From Pseudomonas sp. JM0905a (GTDB lineage Bacteria; Pseudomonadota; Gammaproteobacteria; Pseudomonadales; Pseudomonadaceae): a DNA stretch of 64,000 bases. Shown here piece by piece: positions 433 through 37,063 of this stretch (its first letter is position 1; every line of letters starts with the position of its first letter). The stretch covers positions 186,001 through 250,000 of the forward strand of contig NZ_JACXBU010000004.1 of the NCBI RefSeq assembly GCF_014700075.1, written 5' to 3'. The notes under the pieces are model-generated. The model searched no databases, was not told where the DNA came from, and saw nothing but the letters and a program-made list of their open reading frames with translations. Made by a program: the position numbers and the translations under genes.

Positions 433-1887
433 ATGTCTCTACCGACCCTGCGCATCATCGGCTTCATCATCGGCATCTTCCTCATCACCCTGGCCGCGAG
501 CATGGTCATTCCCATGCTCACCCTGCTGGCTTTCGAGCGCACCGATGACATCTCCGCCTTCCTCTGGTCGAGCCTGATCACCTTCGCCACCGGCCTGGCC
601 CTGATCGCTCCCGGTCGCGCCGAGCACACCCACCTGCGCCCAAGGGACATGTATATGCTGACCACGGCCAGCTGGGTGGTGGTCTGCGGCTTCGCCGCCC
701 TGCCCATGGTGCTGATCCAGCACATCAGCTACACGGACTCCTTCTTCGAGACCATGTCCGGCATCACCACCACCGGTTCCACCGTGCTCACCGGCCTGGA
801 TCACGCCTCGCCCGGCCTGCTGATCTGGCGCTCGATGCTGCACTGGCTGGGCGGTATCGGCTTCATCGGCATGGCGGTGGCCATCCTGCCCCTGCTGCGG
901 GTTGGCGGCATGCGCCTGTTCCAGACCGAATCCTCCGACTGGGGCGAGAAGGTCATGCCGCGCTCGCACATGGTCGCCAAGTTCATCGTGCTGGTGTACG
1001 CCGGGCTGACCGTGCTCGGCACCCTGGCATTCTGGCTGGCGGGCATGACCCCCTTCGAATCGGTGAACCACTCCATGTCGCTGATCTCCACCGGCGGATT
1101 CTCCACTTCGGACGCTTCCCTGGCGAACTGGAAACAACCCGCGGTGCACTGGGTGGCGGTGGCGGTGATGATCTTCGGCAGCCTGCCCTTCACCCTCCTG
1201 GTGGCCACCTTCCGCGGCAATCGAACGGCCCTGCTGCGCGACCACCAGGTGCACGGTTTTCTCGGTTTCCTGGTGGTCACCTGGCTGCTCGTAGGCACCT
1301 GGCTCTGGGCCAACTCCGACAACCCATGGCTGGATGCCGTGCGCATCGTCGCGGTCAACATCACCTCGGTGGTCACCACCACCGGTGTGGCCCTCGGCGA
1401 CTACACCCTCTGGGGCAGCTTCTCGGTAATGCTGTTCTTCTACCTGACCTTCATCGGCGGCTGCTCCGGCTCCACCGCCGGCGGCCTGAAGATCTTCCGC
1501 TTCCAGGTGGCCTGGCAGTTGCTCAACGCCAACCTGAAACAGCTGGTGCACCCGCGCGCGGTGATCAAGCAGCAGTACAACGGGCACAATCTGGACGATG
1601 ACATCGTCCGCTCGCTGATCACCTTCTCTTTCTTCTTCACCACCACCATCGCGGTGATCGCATTCGGCCTCTGCCTGATCGGCCTGGACTGGGTCACCGC
1701 CCTTACCGGCGCCGCCACCGCCGTGTGCAATGTGGGGCCGGGCCTGGGCCCGATCATCGGGCCGGTGGGCAACTTCTCCACCTTGCCGGATTCGGCGAAG
1801 TGGCTGCTGACCATCGGCATGCTCCTGGGCCGTCTGGAAATCCTCACGGTTCTGGTACTGTTCACGCCGGCCTTCTGGAAGCACTGA
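433..1887 (+). CDS. trkH: TrkH-type potassium uptake protein, copy 1
   Basis: Membrane subunit of the Trk/Ktr potassium uptake system, expected to work with the cytosolic TrkA gating protein, which is not in this window. It has 484 residues, the normal TrkH length. Four pore-loop motifs with the selectivity-filter glycines are visible: SGITTTGS (about 109-116), ISTGGFS (218-224), VTTTGV (314-319) and CNVGPG (432-437). I chose the ATG at 433 rather than the upstream in-frame ATG at 400. It follows an AGAGGG ribosome site, and the resulting N-terminus MSLPTLRIIGF aligns with the downstream paralogue, giving the same length. A close paralogue follows after 67 bases. Confidence 0.93.
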   Translation: MSLPTLRIIGFIIGIFLITLAASMVIPMLTLLAFERTDDISAFLWSSLITFATGLALIAPGRAEHTHLRPRDMYMLTTASWVVVCGFAALPMVLIQHISYTDSFFETMSGITTTGSTVLTGLDHASPGLLIWRSMLHWLGGIGFIGMAVAILPLLRVGGMRLFQTESSDWGEKVMPRSHMVAKFIVLVYAGLTVLGTLAFWLAGMTPFESVNHSMSLISTGGFSTSDASLANWKQPAVHWVAVAVMIFGSLPFTLLVATFRGNRTALLRDHQVHGFLGFLVVTWLLVGTWLWANSDNPWLDAVRIVAVNITSVVTTTGVALGDYTLWGSFSVMLFFYLTFIGGCSGSTAGGLKIFRFQVAWQLLNANLKQLVHPRAVIKQQYNGHNLDDDIVRSLITFSFFFTTTIAVIAFGLCLIGLDWVTALTGAATAVCNVGPGLGPIIGPVGNFSTLPDSAKWLLTIGMLLGRLEILTVLVLFTPAFWKH

Positions 1888-1954
1888 GCAGGTTTACAGC
1901 GAGCGGGGCGCGGTTAGAATTGCGCCTTTCGCCAATCATCCAGAAAAAGAACCC

Positions 1955-3409
1955 ATGGCCCTGCCGACTCTCCGCATCATCGGCTTTCTCATCGGCATTT
2001 TCCTGATCACCCTCGCGGTCAGCATGGCCATTCCCGTACTGACCCTGGTGTTCTACGACCGCACCGACGACATCAATTCGTTCGTCTGGTCCAGCCTGAT
2101 CACCTTTGTCGCGGGCCTGGCGCTGATCATCCCCGGCCGTCCGGAACACGTGCACCTGCGTCCCCGAGACATGTACCTGCTGACGGTGTCGAGCTGGATC
2201 ATCGTGGGTACCTTCGCGGCCCTGCCCTTCCTGTTCACCCAGCACATCAGCTACACGGACGCCTACTTCGAGAGCATGTCCGGCATCACCGCCACCGGCG
2301 CCACCGTGCTGAGCGGCCTCGACACCATGTCTCCAGGCATCCTCATCTGGCGCTCGCTGCTGCACTGGCTGGGGGGCATCGGCTTCATCGGCATGGCGGT
2401 GGCGATCCTGCCGCTGCTGCGCATCGGTGGCATGCGCCTGTTCCAGACCGAATCCTCCGACCGCTCGGAAAAGGTCATGCCGCGCTCGCACATGGTGGCC
2501 AAATACATCGTCGCCATCTATGTGGGCTTCACCGTGCTCGGCAGCCTGGCCTTCTGGGCGGCGGGCATGGGGCTGTTCGATGCGGTCAACCACGCCATGT
2601 CGGCCATCTCCACCGGCGGTTTCTCCACCTCCGACCAGTCCCTGGCCAAGTGGGACCTGCCGGCAGTGCACTGGGTGGCCGTGGTGGTGATGATCCTCGG
2701 CAGCCTGCCGTTCATGCTCTATGTGTCGGTGCTGCGTGGCCATCGCATGGCACTGTTCAAGGATGAGCAGGTGCAAGGTTTCCTCGCGCTGCTGCTGGTC
2801 ATCTGGCTGGTGCTCGGCACCTGGTACTGGCTGACGACCAAGCTGCACTGGCTGGACGCGCTGCGCCACGTCGCGGTGAACACCACCTCGGTGCTCACCA
2901 CAACCGGCTTTGCCCTGGGCGACTACAGCCTATGGGGCAACTTCTCGCTGATGCTGTTCTTCTACCTGGGCTTCGTCGGCGGCTGCTCCGGCTCCACCGC
3001 CGGCGGAATCAAGATCTTCCGTTTCCAGGTGGCCTACATCCTGCTCAAAGCCAACCTCCAGCAACTGGTACACCCTCGGGCGGTGATCAAGCAGGTCTAC
3101 AACGGCCATCGCCTGGACGACGATATCGTCCGCTCGATCCTGACCTTCTCGTTCTTCTTCACCATCATCATCTGCGCCATCGCCCTGGGCCTGTCGCTGC
3201 TGGGGCTGGACTGGATCACCGCTCTGACTGGCGCGGCCGCGACCGTTTCGGGTGTCGGTCCGGGCCTGGGCGAGATCATTGGCCCGGCCGGCAATTTCTC
3301 CAGCCTGCCGGACGCCGCCAAATGGCTGCTGACCCTGGGCATGCTGCTGGGCCGTCTGGAAATCCTCACCGTGCTGGTGCTGATGACGCCCTATTTCTGG
3401 CGGCACTAA
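1955..3409 (+). CDS. trkH: TrkH-type potassium uptake protein, copy 2 (tandem paralogue)
   Basis: A second 484-residue TrkH, strongly similar to the gene just upstream along its whole length, so this is a tandem duplication. Pore motifs SGITATGA, ISTGGFS, LTTTGF and SGVGPG are all intact, so both copies look functional. Differences cluster in loops, for example around the second pore region and the cytosolic loop near residues 260-300. This suggests diverging kinetics or regulation rather than a recent copy. The ribosome site is weak (AAAAAGAA). The 67-base gap allows cotranscription with copy 1. Confidence 0.93.
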   Translation: MALPTLRIIGFLIGIFLITLAVSMAIPVLTLVFYDRTDDINSFVWSSLITFVAGLALIIPGRPEHVHLRPRDMYLLTVSSWIIVGTFAALPFLFTQHISYTDAYFESMSGITATGATVLSGLDTMSPGILIWRSLLHWLGGIGFIGMAVAILPLLRIGGMRLFQTESSDRSEKVMPRSHMVAKYIVAIYVGFTVLGSLAFWAAGMGLFDAVNHAMSAISTGGFSTSDQSLAKWDLPAVHWVAVVVMILGSLPFMLYVSVLRGHRMALFKDEQVQGFLALLLVIWLVLGTWYWLTTKLHWLDALRHVAVNTTSVLTTTGFALGDYSLWGNFSLMLFFYLGFVGGCSGSTAGGIKIFRFQVAYILLKANLQQLVHPRAVIKQVYNGHRLDDDIVRSILTFSFFFTIIICAIALGLSLLGLDWITALTGAAATVSGVGPGLGEIIGPAGNFSSLPDAAKWLLTLGMLLGRLEILTVLVLMTPYFWRH

Positions 3410-30537: not shown

Positions 30538-30955
30538 ACACCAAGCGCTCGCCCGCTAGGCCCTTGCCTTGCGGGAAGTCCAGCAACTGCCAGGCGAAAT
30601 AGCCTTCGCGGAAGTAGAAGACCTGCCGGTAACCCCAGCTCACGGCCATCTTCACCGCATGGGCGCCGTGAGGACAGACTTCGCTGTCGCAATAGATCAC
30701 CAGCGGCATCTGCCGCGGCCATTGCGGCTGTGCCAGGTCGTTGAAATGGTCGAGCAGGTCGAGGTGCAGGGCGCCGTGGATGTGGCCCCAGGTCCATTCC
30801 CGCGTGGGCCGCACGTCGATGAATATCGCCCCGCGCTCATACAGGTAACGTGCCTGCAGCACGTTCACCGTCATTGCGCCCTCTACTTCCATGGGGGCCT
30901 CCTGGGCTTGCAGATACGGCACCAGGCAAAAGAGCAGAATCGGAAGTAGACGCAT
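30518..30955 (-). CDS. Exported single-domain rhodanese-like protein
   Basis: 145 residues. The signal peptide (MRLLPILLFCLVPYLQAQ) is followed by a rhodanese fold: ARYLYERGAIFIDVRPTREW, GHIHGALHLDLLDHF, and an active-site loop IYCDSEVCPHGAHAVKMA whose cysteine is presumably the sulfur carrier. Periplasmic sulfurtransferase by prediction. I chose the ATG at 30953-30955 because it gives a clean signal peptide; the upstream start adds 34 residues without features. Confidence 0.83.
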   Translation of the reverse strand: MRLLPILLFCLVPYLQAQEAPMEVEGAMTVNVLQARYLYERGAIFIDVRPTREWTWGHIHGALHLDLLDHFNDLAQPQWPRQMPLVIYCDSEVCPHGAHAVKMAVSWGYRQVFYFREGYFAWQLLDFPQGKGLAGERLVFSRPAP

Positions 30956-31311
30956 CGCCGGACCTCCCCGGAGAGAAGCCCCGGAATTTAAGCTTAGGTC
31001 AGTCCGCCTGCCCGGGCCCGGTGCATCCAATACGGCCCGACGACGGGCTAAGAACACTCCGCGCTAACCCGCTTCCAGAAAACTCCGAATTAGCTGGAAC
31101 CCGCGTCCCAAGCGGCTTCCAGGCGATGAGTGGTGTTTTACAGGAGCCTCTGTGGACCCATAATTTTTGACGTCATGTGATTGTCGCCGTGCATGACCCA
31201 ACCTCATCGAAGGAGACAAATTCAAGGGCACCGTACCGGAAGTGCAGTCGCTCGCGTGCAAGCTGGATTCCACGGGCAGGGTGCGCCCCTTGTTGAATAG
31301 GAGTGTTCAAC
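30956..31311. other. Intergenic region upstream of the protease cassette (about 356 bases)
   Basis: No convincing gene. It holds the divergent control region of the rhodanese gene and the metalloprotease gene. Visible: TTGACG (31167-31172), which could be a -35, within the palindrome TGACGTCA (31168-31175), and an A/T-rich patch CATAATTTTTGACG. No matching -10 is clear. AGGAG at about 31299-31303 is the ribosome site of the next gene. Confidence 0.5.
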
Positions 31312-33423
31312 GTGTCCAACCTGCCAGAACAAAACAACGTTCCCCCCATGCCCGACCTGATTCTGCCGACCCAGGAAGACGGTCCAGCCCCCGCCGCGCT
31401 CAATCCCAACCTGCCGCTACCGGTGCCGGGACGCATCACCTTGCCGCCTATCCGCAGCGTGCGCGCCGGCTGCTGGCTGCTGAACTACAAGCCGAGCGGC
31501 GCACCGCTGGTGTCCTACGACGGGACCCTGCGCGTGGAAAGCCACAGCGACGGACGCACCGCCAGCGGCGACCTCTACCAGCGGCCGGTGATCTTCCTGC
31601 CGATCCCCATCCCCACGCCCTTCCCGGTGCTGCAGGGGCAGCCGGTGGTCACCCACGACCTGCCGCTCAAGCCGATCCTCCTCGCCGGGCCCAATCCGGC
31701 ATCGGGCATCCCCATCCTGGCGCGCTCGCGCTACCGCTATTACATCCGTGTGACCGCGCTGCCGGAGTACTTCTACCTCGGCAACAGCTTCGGACTGACC
31801 TTCCAGCTCTACCGCTTCACCGCGCCGAACAGCTGGGCGCTGGAGTCCACCCTCACCGCACAAATGACGCGCATGACCGCACCGGCCGGCTATCCCTCAC
31901 CATCCGACTACGCCGAAGGCGACGTGAAGAACGCCGCCAACACAGTGGTCGGACGCCTGACCATGGGCTGGCTGTCGAGCTACTTCCGCCGCTGCAGCAT
32001 CGAGATCGACACGGTGTCTGGTTCCGAACGGCCCACCAATAGCGGCATCGGCCACACCTGGGCGACGGTGATGGACGCCATCGGCTGGCAGACCGCAGTG
32101 AACCTCAGCGACACCAATGTCGCCGAACCCTCCGGCAACTCCTGGTCCGACGCCGAGATGCACGCGGCGATGCTGGCGCGCCGCGCGGTAGTGAACCTCG
32201 ACAGCGAATGGCGTTACCACATCCTCGCGGTGAAGAACATCGACTCCACGCCGCGCGGAATCATGTACGACGCCAGCGGCACCGACTCCAACAATGTGCC
32301 GCGCGAAGGGATCGGTATCGCCTCGCACTGGATAATCGACCCCGGTTGGGGCACGGTCAGCGGCCAGCGTTTCGGTACAGCGGCGGCGCCTTACTTCCGC
32401 ACCGCAGTGCATGAACTGGGGCATGCCATGGGGCTCTATCACAACTTCGCCGATCACGGCTTCATGTGCACCAGCGACGTGATCGCCAGCGCCGGCACAC
32501 CGGCCACCCCCTTCCCCAGCAACATCCAGTGGTCCTTCCACCCGGACAACCTCAAGCAACTGCGCCACTACCCCGACCCCTTCGTGCGTCCCGGTTCGGT
32601 GGCCTTCGGCGGTGCGTCCACCAGCACCCCGAACATCACCCCGACCGACCTCGAAGCCGAAGTCTTCGGCTTGGCGGTGGAGGTCACGCCGCTGCTCGGC
32701 GAGGTACCGCTGGGGGCCCCCGTGCGCGTCGGCGTGGCCCTGGTCAACCGAGGAGACCAACCCGTCCGGGTACCCGCGACCCTGAGCCTGAAGAGCGACT
32801 TCGTCAGCGGCAGCGTCGCAGACCCGGCAGGCAGCGTGCGCAGCTTCCGCACCATGGTGCACTGCATCGAAGACCGTCCGTTCCGCGTACTGCAATCCGG
32901 CGAGCGCCTGGAAGGCTCCATGACGCTCCTGCGCGGAGCCGAAGGCGCACTCTTCGGTGTGCCGGGCATCCACGACGTCCGGGTCGAAGTGCACTGGGAG
33001 ATCGACGGCATGGTCGCCCATGCGGCCGGCAGCACGACCGTGATGGTCACCGCTGCAGTAGACGCCCGCCACGCAGAAGCCGCGCACAAAGTACTCGCCA
33101 CGCCCGACCTGCACCTGGTGCTCGCTCTGGGCGGGGATCACCTCGACGAAGGCCTGGCAGCACTGGACGCGGCACTCGACTCGGCGGTGCTGAGACCCCA
33201 CTTTGCCGCCGTCGCCGCCAAGCGACTGGCGCGCCGCTTCCTCAAGCGCAAGCCCGACGCCAAGGCCGCCGCGGCACTGCTTGAACACGATGTTGTGATG
33301 AGCGATGCCGAGCGCGACAAGCTGGCCTCACTGATCGATGACGCGGGCGGCGCCGCCACCAAGGACCTGGCAAAAGCGCTCAAGGGCAAGGCCAAGCCAG
33401 CTGCACTGGCACGTGCCAAGTAA
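31312..33423 (+). CDS. Metzincin-type zinc metalloprotease without signal peptide
   Basis: 703 residues. The zinc-binding consensus is complete: HELGHAMGLYH (367-377; H367, E368, H371, H377), with a likely Met-turn at M385 in HGFMCT. This places it among matrixin-like metzincins. The N-terminal ~45 residues are proline-rich with no signal peptide. Residues about 45-190 look beta-rich, about 450-590 resemble a CARDB-like beta domain (VRVGVALVNRGDQPVRVPAT), and the last ~100 are helical and end in a lysine/alanine-rich tail. The start is GTG at 31312, 8 bases after AGGAG; a GTG at 31303 overlaps that site. First gene of a plus-strand cassette. Substrate and export route are unknown. Confidence 0.8.
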   Translation: MSNLPEQNNVPPMPDLILPTQEDGPAPAALNPNLPLPVPGRITLPPIRSVRAGCWLLNYKPSGAPLVSYDGTLRVESHSDGRTASGDLYQRPVIFLPIPIPTPFPVLQGQPVVTHDLPLKPILLAGPNPASGIPILARSRYRYYIRVTALPEYFYLGNSFGLTFQLYRFTAPNSWALESTLTAQMTRMTAPAGYPSPSDYAEGDVKNAANTVVGRLTMGWLSSYFRRCSIEIDTVSGSERPTNSGIGHTWATVMDAIGWQTAVNLSDTNVAEPSGNSWSDAEMHAAMLARRAVVNLDSEWRYHILAVKNIDSTPRGIMYDASGTDSNNVPREGIGIASHWIIDPGWGTVSGQRFGTAAAPYFRTAVHELGHAMGLYHNFADHGFMCTSDVIASAGTPATPFPSNIQWSFHPDNLKQLRHYPDPFVRPGSVAFGGASTSTPNITPTDLEAEVFGLAVEVTPLLGEVPLGAPVRVGVALVNRGDQPVRVPATLSLKSDFVSGSVADPAGSVRSFRTMVHCIEDRPFRVLQSGERLEGSMTLLRGAEGALFGVPGIHDVRVEVHWEIDGMVAHAAGSTTVMVTAAVDARHAEAAHKVLATPDLHLVLALGGDHLDEGLAALDAALDSAVLRPHFAAVAAKRLARRFLKRKPDAKAAAALLEHDVVMSDAERDKLASLIDDAGGAATKDLAKALKGKAKPAALARAK

Positions 33424-33437
33424 CACGTAGCGCAAAC

Positions 33438-33467
33438 CTGGCGCGTCGGCCTGGGCCGGCGCGCCAG
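33438..33467 (+). terminator. GC-rich hairpin after the metzincin gene
   Basis: Arms CTGGCGCG / CGCGCCAG with an inner GGCC pairing, followed by CCTTTACGG. It lies 15 bases after the stop and 20 before the next gene, so it may attenuate rather than end transcription. Confidence 0.4.
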
Positions 33468-33486
33468 CCTTTACGGAGTCACACGA

Positions 33487-33786
33487 ATGACAGAGCTGGA
33501 TACGCGACTGGTAGGCCAATGGCGAAGGCGCACGGAGGCCGCCGCTGCGAAACGCTATGCGGGCCACCTTCACTTCCAGGCCAACGGACTCTATTTCGGG
33601 CAGGCCTCCCCTCCCGACACCTTCACCTGGTGGGACGGCGGCACCTGGGCCATCCACGCACCGGGCAGGCTCGCGCTCTCCACCGCCAATGACGCCGTGG
33701 TCGTCTACCGCTACCAGCTGGACCACGACACCCTCACCATCACCGATGCCTCGGGTTGCCGCATCACCTATCACCGCGATGCCTGA
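33487..33786 (+). CDS. Small hypothetical protein of the protease cassette
   Basis: 99 residues, unrecognised. It is rich in aromatics and beta-strand pattern: LVGQWRRRTEAAAAKRYAGH, LYFGQASPPDTFTWWDGGTW, LALSTANDAVVVYRYQLDHD, TLTITDASGCRITYH. This looks like a small lipocalin-like or beta-barrel fold that binds a ligand or a partner. No signal peptide or membrane helix. CGGAG lies 9 bases before the ATG. It is placed between two protease genes in the same orientation, so a cofactor, inhibitor or immunity-like partner is conceivable, but nothing proves it. Confidence 0.65.
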   Translation: MTELDTRLVGQWRRRTEAAAAKRYAGHLHFQANGLYFGQASPPDTFTWWDGGTWAIHAPGRLALSTANDAVVVYRYQLDHDTLTITDASGCRITYHRDA

Positions 33787-33819
33787 GACGCCGGCCTGAA
33801 TCATTGCCAGGAGGGCGAT

Positions 33820-36588
33820 ATGCCAGGCCCCTATCCCACCACGATCTTCTTCGATCTGGGCGACACGCTGGTCACCACCGTGGGCGGCATGCGCCAGCTC
33901 TACGCCGACACCCTCGACTGCCTGCAGATCCTCAAGGCGCGCGGCTACCGCCTGGGCCTTTTGAGCAACCAGGCGGCCGGCACCACAGTCGCGGCCGTCC
34001 AGGCACAACTCGACCAATTGCACCTGAGCCGTTACATCGAACCCGGCCTCATCACCCTGTCCACCGAGATCCCCGGCAATGTCGGCAAACCGGCACAACC
34101 CGTCTTCGACCTGGCCCGGCAGAAGGCGAAGCATGATGCTGCCAGTGAGCGCGCGATCTTCATCAGTGAATCCGCGCCAGACGTGCTCGCCGCACGGGGT
34201 TATGGCTGGCGCGCGATACTCAAGCGCAATGGCAGCGCCTGTATTCCCGGCGACGGCGAATGTGCCACCGGCCTCGCCGGACTGCTGTACCTGCTGCCAT
34301 CCCTGACTGACAACTCAGGCAGCAACTTCGACCTGGCGCCACCGCCCCGTCTCGTCGATGGGCTCTGGGCCGTGCCGGTGGACATAGCCCGAATCGAGGC
34401 TGCACTCACTTTTGACGCGGCGACCCAACAGGCCAGTGGCGACGCCACCTTCGAGTTCCGCTTGGGCGTCAATGCCGGCTGCCCCATCTTCGACCTGCGC
34501 CAGACGCCCACAGGGGCCTGGCTGGACGGCGCCCCCATTCCACTCGCCGACGTGGCCGCACACGATTTCGGCGGAGGCGCCAACGCCAGCCTGCGCGTAC
34601 TCGCCCGCGTGCTGGAGGCCGGCAGCACCCACAGCCTGCGCCTGACCTACGCGGTCGGCATGCCGCAAGCGTCGACGGCCGGTTCCTATGCGCCGCAGAT
34701 TACCTGGAGCGCAGGTCCCCGGCTGGTGTTCAACTTCGGCTTCACCGACCTCGGCGCCGGCCGCTACCTCGAAGCATTCGTCCCGGCCAACCTGATCTAC
34801 GACCAGTTCGAATTGCTGCTCGATCTGCAGCTTCTGAACACGCCAGTCGCCCACACGCCCATCAGCAACGGTAGCGTCAGCGCCCTCGGCAGCAATCACT
34901 GGAGCATCGCCTTTCCGGCACGCAGCACGGCCTTCTCGCCATTACTGGAACTGCGCCCGAGCGACAGCCTGCAGAGCGCCACGGTCAATACCGTGCTGCC
35001 GGTCTCGGGCAGCGCCGTGGCGGTGACAGCCTGGAAACTCTCCAGCAGCGCGGTGAACGTCGCCACCCAGGCCAGCGCCATAGCCGGATTCCTCGCCGAC
35101 AACGAGAACAGCTCCGGGCGCTACGTCCATGGCGGGCGCTTCACCGCCTTCATTCACCAGGGCGGCATGGAGTACGACGGCGGCACCACCAGCGGCACCG
35201 GTCCGCTGCGCCACGAGGCGTTCCACAGCTGGTGGGCACGCGGCCTGAAGCCGGCAAGCCAGCCCGACGCCTGGTTCGACGAAGCCTGGACGGTCTACAA
35301 CGACAACGGCGCCGGGGGCGTGCAGCCTCTCGATTTCACAGCCCCTGCCCTCGCCCTGTGCCCACGCAACCCCTGGGTCAGGGTCACTCACCTCGACGCT
35401 TATGGCGCCGGCGAACGCCTCTGGAAAGGCATCGCCGCATTGACAGGAGCGGCCGCCTTGCGCGACCAGATGCGCGCCTTCTACCAGGCTCGCCACGCGC
35501 GCCCGGTCCGTAGCGAAGACATCGAATGCCACCTCCTGGCGCGCACCGGACAGCCGGACTGCGTGGACGCCTTTCACCGCTTCGTCTACGGCTTTGCCGA
35601 TCCAGCGCCGCTGCCCGATCTCTGGCTGCGCGATGATGCAGCCGATCCTGGCGCCAATGATTGGCCCGGCCGTTTCTGGGACTCGCCCGACCTCTGGGTG
35701 CGTAACCGGAATGATGACGGCCTGGAGCACCAGAACCCGGAGTACGGTCAGGACAACTGGATCCACGCACGCGTGCGCAATCGCAGCGCCATCGCCACTG
35801 CACGCCACCTGGTGGTCAGCTTCAACATCAAGCAATACGCCGGCAGCCAGTTCACCTATCCATCCGACTTCCTGCCCGCCGTAACGGCAGCCGCCGCCTT
35901 CGACCTCGGTCCCGGCGAAAGCCGCATCCTCAAGGCGCGCCTGCCACGCTCGGCGATTCCCCCCACCGGTAGCCATCCCTGCCTGCTGGCCAGCGTCTTC
36001 ACCCGCTTCGACCGCCCGCAGGCGGGGCGCCACGTCTGGGAACAGAACAACCTGGCGCAGAAGAACCTGACGGTGGTCGACCTGGCACCGAACGCCTGGA
36101 TCGTACTGCCCCTGTTGGCGATCAACCTGCGACCGCGACTCTCGCGCACCGTCCAGCTTGAGCTGGTGCGGCCGAAGGGACTCGAAGCACTGGCGGCGGG
36201 GCTGTTGCTGGAGAAACGCGCGCTGCCACCCTCAGTCCGGGGCAGTGCCCGTGTGCTGCCGGTAGCACCGCCGCACCAGGACGCCTCGCGGCTGGATTGC
36301 TCCTGCAGCCATCAGGACAGCGAGACGGCCTTCGCCGCGACGATGCTCACCAGCCACGCGCCGGAACGTCTCGCCGAACAGTTTCCGGGGGCACTGGAGC
36401 TCGCCTTCGCCCACGGAGAGCACACGCGGCTGCCGGTGCTCCTGCGACCATCGGAAGCGCTTCGGGTTGGATTGCGGATCCAGGTTCCGGGCAATGCCAA
36501 GCGCGGCTCGCGCTTCACCGTCGATCTGCTGCAGCGGGAACACGGCAGGATCGTCGGCGGCGTGGCGATGGAGGTGCGGGTGATCTAG
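33820..36588 (+). CDS. HAD hydrolase domain fused to an M61/M1-like metallopeptidase
   Basis: 922 residues, two enzymes in one chain. Residues about 1-160 are a HAD domain: motif I FFDLGDTLVTT (the usual acid/base Asp at +2 is Gly), motif II LLSNQ, motif III lysine in GNVGKPAQPVF, motif IV ISESAPDVLAARGYGW. Residues about 165-440 look like the beta-sandwich that precedes M1/M61 catalytic domains. The gluzincin core follows: GGMEY (448-452, compare GxMEN/GGLEH), HEAFHSWW (H465, E466, H469) and E488 in FDEAW, an exact HEXXH-X18-E. A C-terminal CARDB-like region (about 590-760: DLWVRNRNDDG, NPEYGQDNWIHARVRNRS) and a beta tail end the protein. AGGAGG precedes the ATG; no signal peptide. Confidence 0.78.
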   Translation: MPGPYPTTIFFDLGDTLVTTVGGMRQLYADTLDCLQILKARGYRLGLLSNQAAGTTVAAVQAQLDQLHLSRYIEPGLITLSTEIPGNVGKPAQPVFDLARQKAKHDAASERAIFISESAPDVLAARGYGWRAILKRNGSACIPGDGECATGLAGLLYLLPSLTDNSGSNFDLAPPPRLVDGLWAVPVDIARIEAALTFDAATQQASGDATFEFRLGVNAGCPIFDLRQTPTGAWLDGAPIPLADVAAHDFGGGANASLRVLARVLEAGSTHSLRLTYAVGMPQASTAGSYAPQITWSAGPRLVFNFGFTDLGAGRYLEAFVPANLIYDQFELLLDLQLLNTPVAHTPISNGSVSALGSNHWSIAFPARSTAFSPLLELRPSDSLQSATVNTVLPVSGSAVAVTAWKLSSSAVNVATQASAIAGFLADNENSSGRYVHGGRFTAFIHQGGMEYDGGTTSGTGPLRHEAFHSWWARGLKPASQPDAWFDEAWTVYNDNGAGGVQPLDFTAPALALCPRNPWVRVTHLDAYGAGERLWKGIAALTGAAALRDQMRAFYQARHARPVRSEDIECHLLARTGQPDCVDAFHRFVYGFADPAPLPDLWLRDDAADPGANDWPGRFWDSPDLWVRNRNDDGLEHQNPEYGQDNWIHARVRNRSAIATARHLVVSFNIKQYAGSQFTYPSDFLPAVTAAAAFDLGPGESRILKARLPRSAIPPTGSHPCLLASVFTRFDRPQAGRHVWEQNNLAQKNLTVVDLAPNAWIVLPLLAINLRPRLSRTVQLELVRPKGLEALAAGLLLEKRALPPSVRGSARVLPVAPPHQDASRLDCSCSHQDSETAFAATMLTSHAPERLAEQFPGALELAFAHGEHTRLPVLLRPSEALRVGLRIQVPGNAKRGSRFTVDLLQREHGRIVGGVAMEVRVI

Positions 36589-36596
36589 GCATCGAT

Positions 36597-36618
36597 GGCG
36601 CCCTGCGAACGGGGCGCC
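36597..36618. terminator. Hairpin between the fusion gene and the chemotaxis cluster
   Basis: Arms GGCGCCC / GGGCGCC with an 8-base loop, 9 bases after the fusion gene stop. A second possible stem (CCGGACG / CGTCCGG) follows to about 36644. It lies between convergent units, so it may stop both. Confidence 0.5.
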
Positions 36619-36652
36619 CGGACGAGACGAACGCAACCCGTCCGGGGATGGC

Positions 36653-37063
36653 TCAGTCGTAATCTTTCCGGGCCTGGTGCAGCTTGCTCACCAGTTCGGC
36701 TTCAGCCTTGGTCAGGCCGCAGGATTGGGTGAGGTCGTCGACGCTGGCGCCGAGCCCCACCAGACGCGCGGCCTGGGAGAAGGACAGGTTGCTGGGGTCG
36801 CGTTGTTCGAGCTGGCTCAGCTTGTCCGGCAGGGGCGCAACCACGCGACGCAGTTCGTGGAGCTCTTCGCCCATGCGCACGGTGCCTTCCAGATAGGTCT
36901 CCAGGCGACGCGTCAGCTCCTTGAACTTCTGGTCACGCACCGCATCGCGCGCGGCCTGCGCCTCGACCTCCTGGCGCAGGCGCTGGGCCAGCCGGTGGCA
37001 GGTCCAGCCCAGAACCACGCAGGCCAGGGCGAGGGCCAACGCGAGCAGTGCAATCCAGATCAA
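36653..37063 (-). CDS. DUF2802 membrane-anchored protein of the chemotaxis operon
   Basis: 136 residues: one N-terminal helix (MIWIALLALALALACVVLGW), a coiled-coil stretch (about 25-85), and a C-terminal DUF2802 region (SFSQAARLVGLGASVDDLTQ, CGLTKAEAELVSKLH) that looks like a small helix-turn-helix-type fold. Always seen next to cheW in Pseudomonas, as here, one base after the cheW stop. Function not established. Confidence 0.85.
   Translation of the reverse strand: MIWIALLALALALACVVLGWTCHRLAQRLRQEVEAQAARDAVRDQKFKELTRRLETYLEGTVRMGEELHELRRVVAPLPDKLSQLEQRDPSNLSFSQAARLVGLGASVDDLTQSCGLTKAEAELVSKLHQARKDYD

Follow-up and report, generated by a model that had tools for sequence, protein, structure and literature searches.

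Why do three plus-strand genes, two of them encoding apparent metallopeptidases, lie in a flagellar and chemotaxis region of Pseudomonas sp. JM0905a? The question arises from a 64,000-nucleotide stretch (NZ_JACXBU010000004.1, positions 186,001 to 250,000; hereafter the window, with coordinates counted from its first letter), in which the plus strand carries three open reading frames, flanked by a rhodanese-like gene on one side and a DUF2802 gene on the other: g1 (31312..33423), a matrixin-like metzincin protease of 703 residues with a GTG start, g2 (33487..33786), encoding 99 residues with a predicted calycin-type eight-stranded beta-barrel, and g3 (33820..36588), a 922-residue protein with a HAD part, a gluzincin peptidase and a C-terminal region. 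A first-pass annotation, made from the letters of the window alone, had taken these frames, all of which we recover, for an inserted three-gene protease cassette. We consider the cassette to be a self-contained, horizontally spread protease-inhibitor unit with leader-controlled g1, inhibitory g2 and g3 as an accessory gene, a reading to which we assign a probability of roughly 0.55.

The cassette is an insertion between the rhodanese and DUF2802 genes. Each of the 18 genomes of the genus sample was found to contain DUF2802-cheW, and the interval from the FlhB-C gene to DUF2802/cheW, which the annotation had suggested comparing, is not constant, as the cassette is absent from this site in 11 of the 18; g3 is present in the other seven, adjoining DUF2802-cheW in each. 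In the cassette-free genomes compared (10 of the 11, G008 not being included), the rhodanese and DUF2802 genes are colinear throughout, with 79-186 bases separating the homologous ends. DNA homology on the left stops at 30998-31008 in seven of these ten and at 30901-30966 in L095, L096 and L098, where a resemblance can be followed by eye to ~31066, and on the right it resumes at 36640-36678. Inspection by eye of the stretches around the insertion revealed neither a target duplication nor an integrase, and no tRNA gene was found in nine loci. The colinear flanks, together with the recurrence of the genes elsewhere, bear out the proposed insertion.

The distribution separates a core from an add-on. 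Among 298 genomes of the family, the Pseudomonadaceae as judged from named contigs coinciding with some of them, g1 is found in 12 (13 matches, a weak partial one in G197 being set aside) and g2 in the identical set, ten of the 12 belonging to one genus. A covariance model, R1, built from the 3' part of the 5' leader of g1 (31214-31317), matches exactly these 12 at E <= 0.001, once each and abutting g1, and nowhere else in the 298. Seven of the 12 have g3 (eight matches in the 298, with a weak partial match in G123 set aside). As the same 12 genomes hold all three of the former elements and only seven of them hold g3, the cassette core is leader, g1 and g2, with g3 as an add-on; the three-gene unit proposed earlier thus stands for the first two genes, joined by the leader, and for g3 in part of the genomes only. 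In the phylum samples, g1 is present over most of its length in two of 398 genomes, the source genome and G404; the remaining four of the six matches are short and local, three of them belonging, when read in context, to unrelated proteins (the fourth is in G395). The same pair of genomes has g2 (two of 369). G404 (L053) is of another class, probably alphaproteobacterial by our guess, and its g1 is ~30% identical, with g2 upstream, in reversed order.

Besides the che site, the cassette occupies at least five settings: L010 with L014-L016 (which by eye have a downstream neighbour in common and perhaps form a single region), L011/L012 and, lacking g3, L037/L038/L041, L039/L040 (next to flagellin) and L036 (an IMG/VR record in which the cassette adjoins a prophage). 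The full trio recurs at three or four different sites. A scan of the contigs for g3 gave 14 loci, ten with g1-g2-g3 in order and four, from other phyla, with only g3 relatives in the DNA at hand (identical contigs appear under two handles: L008 = G007, L009 = G016, L013 = G015, L017 = G014). At L036, an apparent ribosome site and apparent first codons of g3 remain after g2, which points to a probable loss of g3 at this locus. In a tree built from 19 g1 rows, with three distant rows omitted, two changes are required to explain where g3 is present, and a single origin is possible. Such recurrence makes it highly improbable that three unrelated genes were joined by chance at a site tolerant to insertion: in the family sample none of leader, g1 and g2 is found without the other two, and g1 accompanies g2 in the phylum samples, which already contradicts chance assembly for these three. 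The tie of g3 is the less certain one, considering that homologues without g1-g2 exist in other phyla and that five of the 12 g1-g2 genomes are devoid of it. Correspondingly, the independent occurrence of the genes, or a constant interval of known role, either of which the annotation had named as speaking against a cassette, is not seen for leader, g1 and g2, with g3 alone in other phyla as the part that departs.

Phage and plasmid cargo were both considered and dropped. Five plasmid records match g1, one of them, Caballeronia insecticola p1, over 95% of the gene; one matches g2 and one matches g3 over 15%. On p1, g1-g2 is present without the leader. No phage record matches g3, the one gene that this search covered, and the sole viral contig with g1-g2 reads by eye as prophage plus host flank. 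The IMG/VR record ends in apparent host DNA (L036:1-933 and L116; a fimbrial-like gene and the cassette), and therefore seems over-extended as a virus record.

What, then, does the core encode? By its motif g1 is a metzincin, one that is not filed under an existing Pfam family. HELGHAMGLYH is encoded at 32410-32442 and the methionine of the Met-turn at 32464, giving both the HExxHxxGxxH signature and the Met-turn methionine of metzincins, and H370, E371, H374, H380 and M388 are unchanged in 22/22 aligned rows (residue numbers count from 31303), the motif glycine being N in the four most distant. The spacing of Met388 is, we assume, that of matrix metalloproteinases (MMPs). The protease assignment of the annotation is thereby upheld by motif, though the best Pfam hits score below the cut-offs (M10 19.8 bits vs 24; M66 16.6 vs 20.6); a PDB profile search returned MMP-12 (E 7e-4) and ulilysin (E 1.6e-3). 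The AlphaFold2 model of g1 is poor, with a mean pLDDT of 48.3 and values <50 over residues 309-452. Further upstream, all 19 rows aligning there, each from a locus having g2, keep an N-terminal Cys (codon 31471). The other three rows show a gap, and for these distant relatives, which lack the N-terminal region, no g2 match was obtained at E <= 0.5 in the DNA at hand. The enzyme is probably held latent through its N-terminal region, where the invariant Cys may cap the zinc in an MMP-style cysteine switch. The g1 at L041:6580-8677 (G008) is broken up into a pair of overlapping frames, with leader and g2 as usual.

In its window form, the small neighbour matches no Pfam or NCBIfam family at E <= 1. 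Its AlphaFold2 model is an eight-stranded barrel (pLDDT 82.0, pTM 0.74), for which Foldseek ranks potempin E first (E 0.012), U-Omp19 ninth and the I38 metalloprotease inhibitor 6iy4 eleventh (E ~0.1 for the latter two). Hence, three protease inhibitors are among the top 11, with weak E-values and amid many lipocalin-like barrels; 6iy4 gives TM-scores of 0.55/0.58 with the model, and lipocalin-like chains score equal or higher. A BFVD search returned nothing at E <= 0.001. At every locus with g2 examined it adjoins g1, so that, by predicted fold, it constitutes a small beta-barrel beside a protease as in potempin systems. Congruent with this arrangement, g2 is probably an inhibitor of the neighbouring g1, judged from the model.

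Protease-inhibitor gene pairs of comparable layout are known. In Tannerella forsythia, a metalloprotease gene adjoins a small inhibitor gene in the potempin-KLIKK pairs (karilysin-PotA and forsilysin-PotE), and potempins are described as lipoproteins (PMC7296668); karilysin is reported to be MMP-like (PMC13340143). The cassette shares with these the protease gene beside a small inhibitor-like gene, with potempin E as the first-ranked Foldseek hit, and G404 even has the same inhibitor-first order. On the other hand, sequence identity in the structural alignment of g2 with potempin E is only 14%, the window g1 and g2 have no visible signal peptide, unlike the potempin lipoproteins, and the cassette comes with a conserved leader of its own and, frequently, with g3.

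A second comparison is the serralysin AprA with its inhibitor AprI/APRin (I38, Inh), a metzincin paired with an eight-stranded barrel that contains a conserved Trp and bears a short segment at its N-terminus (PMC9486555). In g2, nine residues precede strand 1 and Trp12, a candidate counterpart of the inhibitor Trp, is found in 21/21 rows. In contrast to AprI, none of the 21 rows has Inh among its Pfam families at E <= 1, a signal peptide is not visible, and the window g2 has a single Cys and therefore no internal disulfide; g1, moreover, has no RTX repeats recognised by eye. A disulfide of the I38 type is not conserved across the 21 rows: Cys20 and Cys91 are both present in 16, one alone in three (including the window) and neither in two. 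Cys20 is replaced in the window, L002, L003, L004 and L005, and Cys91 in L004 and L005, a pattern that would fit the stepwise loss of a disulfide.

Among VIA rows, those nearest to g2 belong to lipocalin-like or sugar-binding proteins, which suits another reading: an intracellular proteolysis module devoid of a toxin role, in which g1 and g3 would process a cellular protein and g2 would act as a specificity or folding partner, or as a lipocalin-fold ligand sensor. The missing export signals of the window proteins and the free-standing g3 homologues of other phyla agree with such a module, but a patchy spread over different sites (12/298) is ill-suited to a housekeeping function, and a constant small partner would be more typical of a restrained enzyme. 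We regard this reading as unlikely.

Delivery into other cells is a further alternative, and here the annotation had raised an effector pair with a small partner. That idea is supported in part: the pair is g1 and g2, the latter inhibitor-like in its model, with g3 only as an add-on, and an effector role is hypothetical. In the antibacterial version, g1 would be delivered by contractile injection or lysis into competitors and g2 would serve as the cytoplasmic immunity protein of the producer. The inhibitor step is shared with the protease-inhibitor reading and the delivery differs. Patchy distribution and varied sites suit such cargo, and there is a precedent in Stenotrophomonas rhizophila, where PAAR2-Tse2/Tsi2 comprises a type VI secretion system (T6SS) effector predicted to be an MMP-like protease and a PotempinA-like immunity protein (PMC13340143), a likeness by description only. 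Nevertheless, g1 is not PAAR-fused in its Pfam list, no adjoining T6SS gene was recognised by eye, and VgrG, PAAR and Hcp were likewise not recognised by eye among the neighbours read, for which no profile scan was made. Furthermore, the immunity protein of that system has a signal peptide, which is lacking in window g2. PADLOC defence models gave 0 families for g1, g2 and g3 at E <= 0.1. We find this antibacterial version doubtful.

By hydropathy scan (not SignalP), no signal peptide is visible in window g1, g2 or g3, as annotated earlier for the two proteases, and there is no hydrophobic N-terminus in the 21 g2 rows as aligned, which differs from an exported lipoprotein of the potempin type. 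Three exceptions among relatives weigh against a cytoplasmic unit or are ambiguous: the Caballeronia g2 frame can begin 27 codons upstream with a signal-like stretch, the Caballeronia g1 row is hydrophobic at its N-terminus as called, and signal-like N-termini are seen in L020 and L021, two distant relatives of g3. An in-frame upstream ATG at L043:9010 gives the Caballeronia g1 the usual proline-rich start.

Aggregated, the protease-inhibitor reading would run as follows. The cassette's own promoter would yield an mRNA whose conserved leader sets the translation level of g1; the probably latent metzincin would be bound and blocked by the g2 calycin barrel, like potempins and I38 (Inh/APRin) inhibitors with neighbouring metzincins, such that the producer survives; and g3 may provide an extra peptidase within the same response. 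As to location and target, which we infer, g1 and g2 would remain cytoplasmic, or exit without a signal peptide through lysis or a contractile injector, and g2 would therefore act as a cytoplasmic antidote. The cassette differs from known protease-inhibitor pairs in that no export signals are visible in the window, in being mobile and in having a dedicated leader: metzincin-barrel inhibitor pairs in the literature examined are exported, and the window pair moves between sites without a recognisable export signal. A bolder form of the idea, which we hold to be less likely than not, is a mobile cytoplasmic protease-antidote module, where a latent metzincin and a calycin antidote, both devoid of export signals, act under a leader that would be a translational control element of a new class; once triggered, the module might kill or remodel its own cell or competing ones. 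With no export tag on either protein in the window, the protease seems to be retained within the cell, under restraint. No description of the cassette was found in titles and abstract openings of open-licence papers.

The start of g1 is placed at GTG 31312 by alignment with relatives, rather than at the mechanical frame start of 31303, and the rhodanese-like gene, on the opposite strand, starts at 30955; the 356 bases in between correspond to the leader annotated earlier. The A/T-patched character noted there agrees with a G+C of 53% in the promoter and 57% in the leader vs a gene mean of 65%. A plus-strand consensus promoter, TTTACA-16 nt-CATAAT, lies at 31137..31164 (one match found vs 0.6 expected by chance), and in a pattern search CATAAT or CATACT stands 4-9 nt (mostly 7) upstream of a hairpin in 16/16 leaders from different genomic sites. 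The -35 is not evidently conserved, and transcription would start at ~31171. A sigma-54 promoter, considered by eye, was inconsistent across loci.

Downstream follows a conserved 5' leader of ~141 nt (31171..31311, plus strand), aligned in 18 loci and with no Rfam match at E <= 5. It terminates in a nearly invariant 38-nt core (31272..31309) that includes the Shine-Dalgarno sequence and ends 2 nt before the g1 start codon. In five of nine other loci (L008, L010, L012, L014 and L037, four of them at other genomic sites) the core is identical to that of the window; L009 has one inserted C, and L042, L039 and L036 deviate at 2, 5 and 8 positions, respectively. The four-fold sites of g1 are 50-66% identical across the nine loci, and 54-66% in the five with an identical core, the leader core thus being more conserved than the cassette genes.

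Several candidate structures are found in the leader. A 5'-terminal hairpin, GTCATGTG...TGCATGAC (31172..31197), has a 5-11 bp stem at this place in 16/16 leaders, and its arms co-vary between groups (GTCATG/CATGAC, CTCATG/CATGAG and TCGTG/CACGA), a pairing that is partly by construction, since the arms were chosen by a best-hairpin search. Just 5' of the start codon, the hairpin GTTGAATAGGAGTGTTCAAC (31292..31311; helix 4 of the consensus) presents GGAG in its loop, which suggests control by Rsm/CsrA, an idea only; 96.7% of its cells are paired, with no compensatory change, the unpaired cells belonging by reading to one row (L036). The long-range fold from RNAalifold has compensatory changes in 0/24 pairs, not above shuffles, paired changes being confined to the 5'-terminal hairpin outside that model, and minimum energies are unremarkable in most of nine copies (z -2.75 to +0.99). 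On these grounds, the leader is a conserved sequence of unproven structure. A riboswitch-like fold, without covariation support or excess over shuffles, is equally unproven, and an attC-like reading of a GTTGAA/TTCAAC repeat was dropped by hand against the attC consensus. If the proposed role holds, the leader would offer a clean model for the control of a dangerous protease.

The add-on g3 is a HAD-peptidase fusion, as annotated. The HAD part (~residues 1-140; Pfam Hydrolase) scores above the Pfam cut-off and is followed by a gluzincin part (~173-600) and the C-terminal region (625-922). The gluzincin motif of M1/M61, HExxH-18-E (H465, E466, H469 and E488), is invariant in 17/17 rows. Pfam Peptidase_M1 matches three of the 17 (best E 5.3e-9) and not window g3 at E <= 0.1; a PDB profile search gave the zinc metalloprotease 6a8z for residues 432-593 (E 1.4e-4). 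HAD hydrolases and 6a8z match their parts separately, and no PDB chain among the eight sequences at E <= 1 spans both. The similar CARDB-like C-termini claimed for g1 and g3 were not recovered at the sequence level: a ten-sequence comparison yielded no blastp alignment up to E 10 and phmmer values of E >= 1, and CARDB is not listed at E <= 1 for either. The g3 C-terminal region instead resembles that of a peptidase adjoining a g3 homologue in Desulfurivibrio (27%; L019:6366-12093), which we take by motif to be M4-like, and a Mesorhizobium plasmid protein (31.5%; L052:6240-11593) that shows an FTP motif below threshold and is encoded close to an M28 peptidase gene. One C-terminal module is thus common to different peptidase types. 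Directly 3' of a gene with this C-terminus lies a phosphoglycerate-mutase-like gene both in Gemmatimonadales (L018:2848-3375, by eye; the contig begins 485 bases 5' of the g3 match) and on the Mesorhizobium plasmid (L052:8981-9517, annotated).

The surroundings are, as annotated, those of flagellar, chemotaxis or ccm genes, named from reading of the translations. To the left of the cassette stand ccm, FliK-like, FlhB-C and rhodanese genes; DUF2802, cheW, cheW-like, parA and mot genes lie to its right. The hairpins said to bound the cassette are found on the right, where a plus-strand 7-bp hairpin (GGCGCCC...GGGCGCC; 36597..36618) with no listed T-run terminator lies 3' of g3; on the left there are only the leader's own. 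Another plus-strand hairpin, between g1 and g2 (33438..33467), falls within an sX6 match that stays below threshold (19.4 bits vs a gathering score of 40, E 0.034). In codon score, g1, g2 and g3 are slightly low (z -1.1 to -2.3 among 63 genes, from a model trained on the same window), and their G+C is not low (z 0.4 to 1.0 among the 63).

Other loci hold companions of their own. Beside g1-g2 on Caballeronia p1, L043:5227-8537 holds a 140-aa gene and a divergent M14 carboxypeptidase-VWA protein (by Pfam) with no visible signal peptide, a companion peptidase of another kind in the place that g3 takes elsewhere. One gene beyond g1-g2, L039:10521-11645 encodes a second metzincin-like protein (HELGHTMGLHH) with an apparent ricin-type lectin domain by eye. 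In two Pseudomonas groups, genes for CAP-like secreted proteins, recognised by eye, lie on opposite sides of the cassette (L010:3879-4790 and L014:10792-11643). Finally, the window carries at 433-3409 a tandem pair of 484-residue membrane proteins, very alike over the first 90 residues compared.

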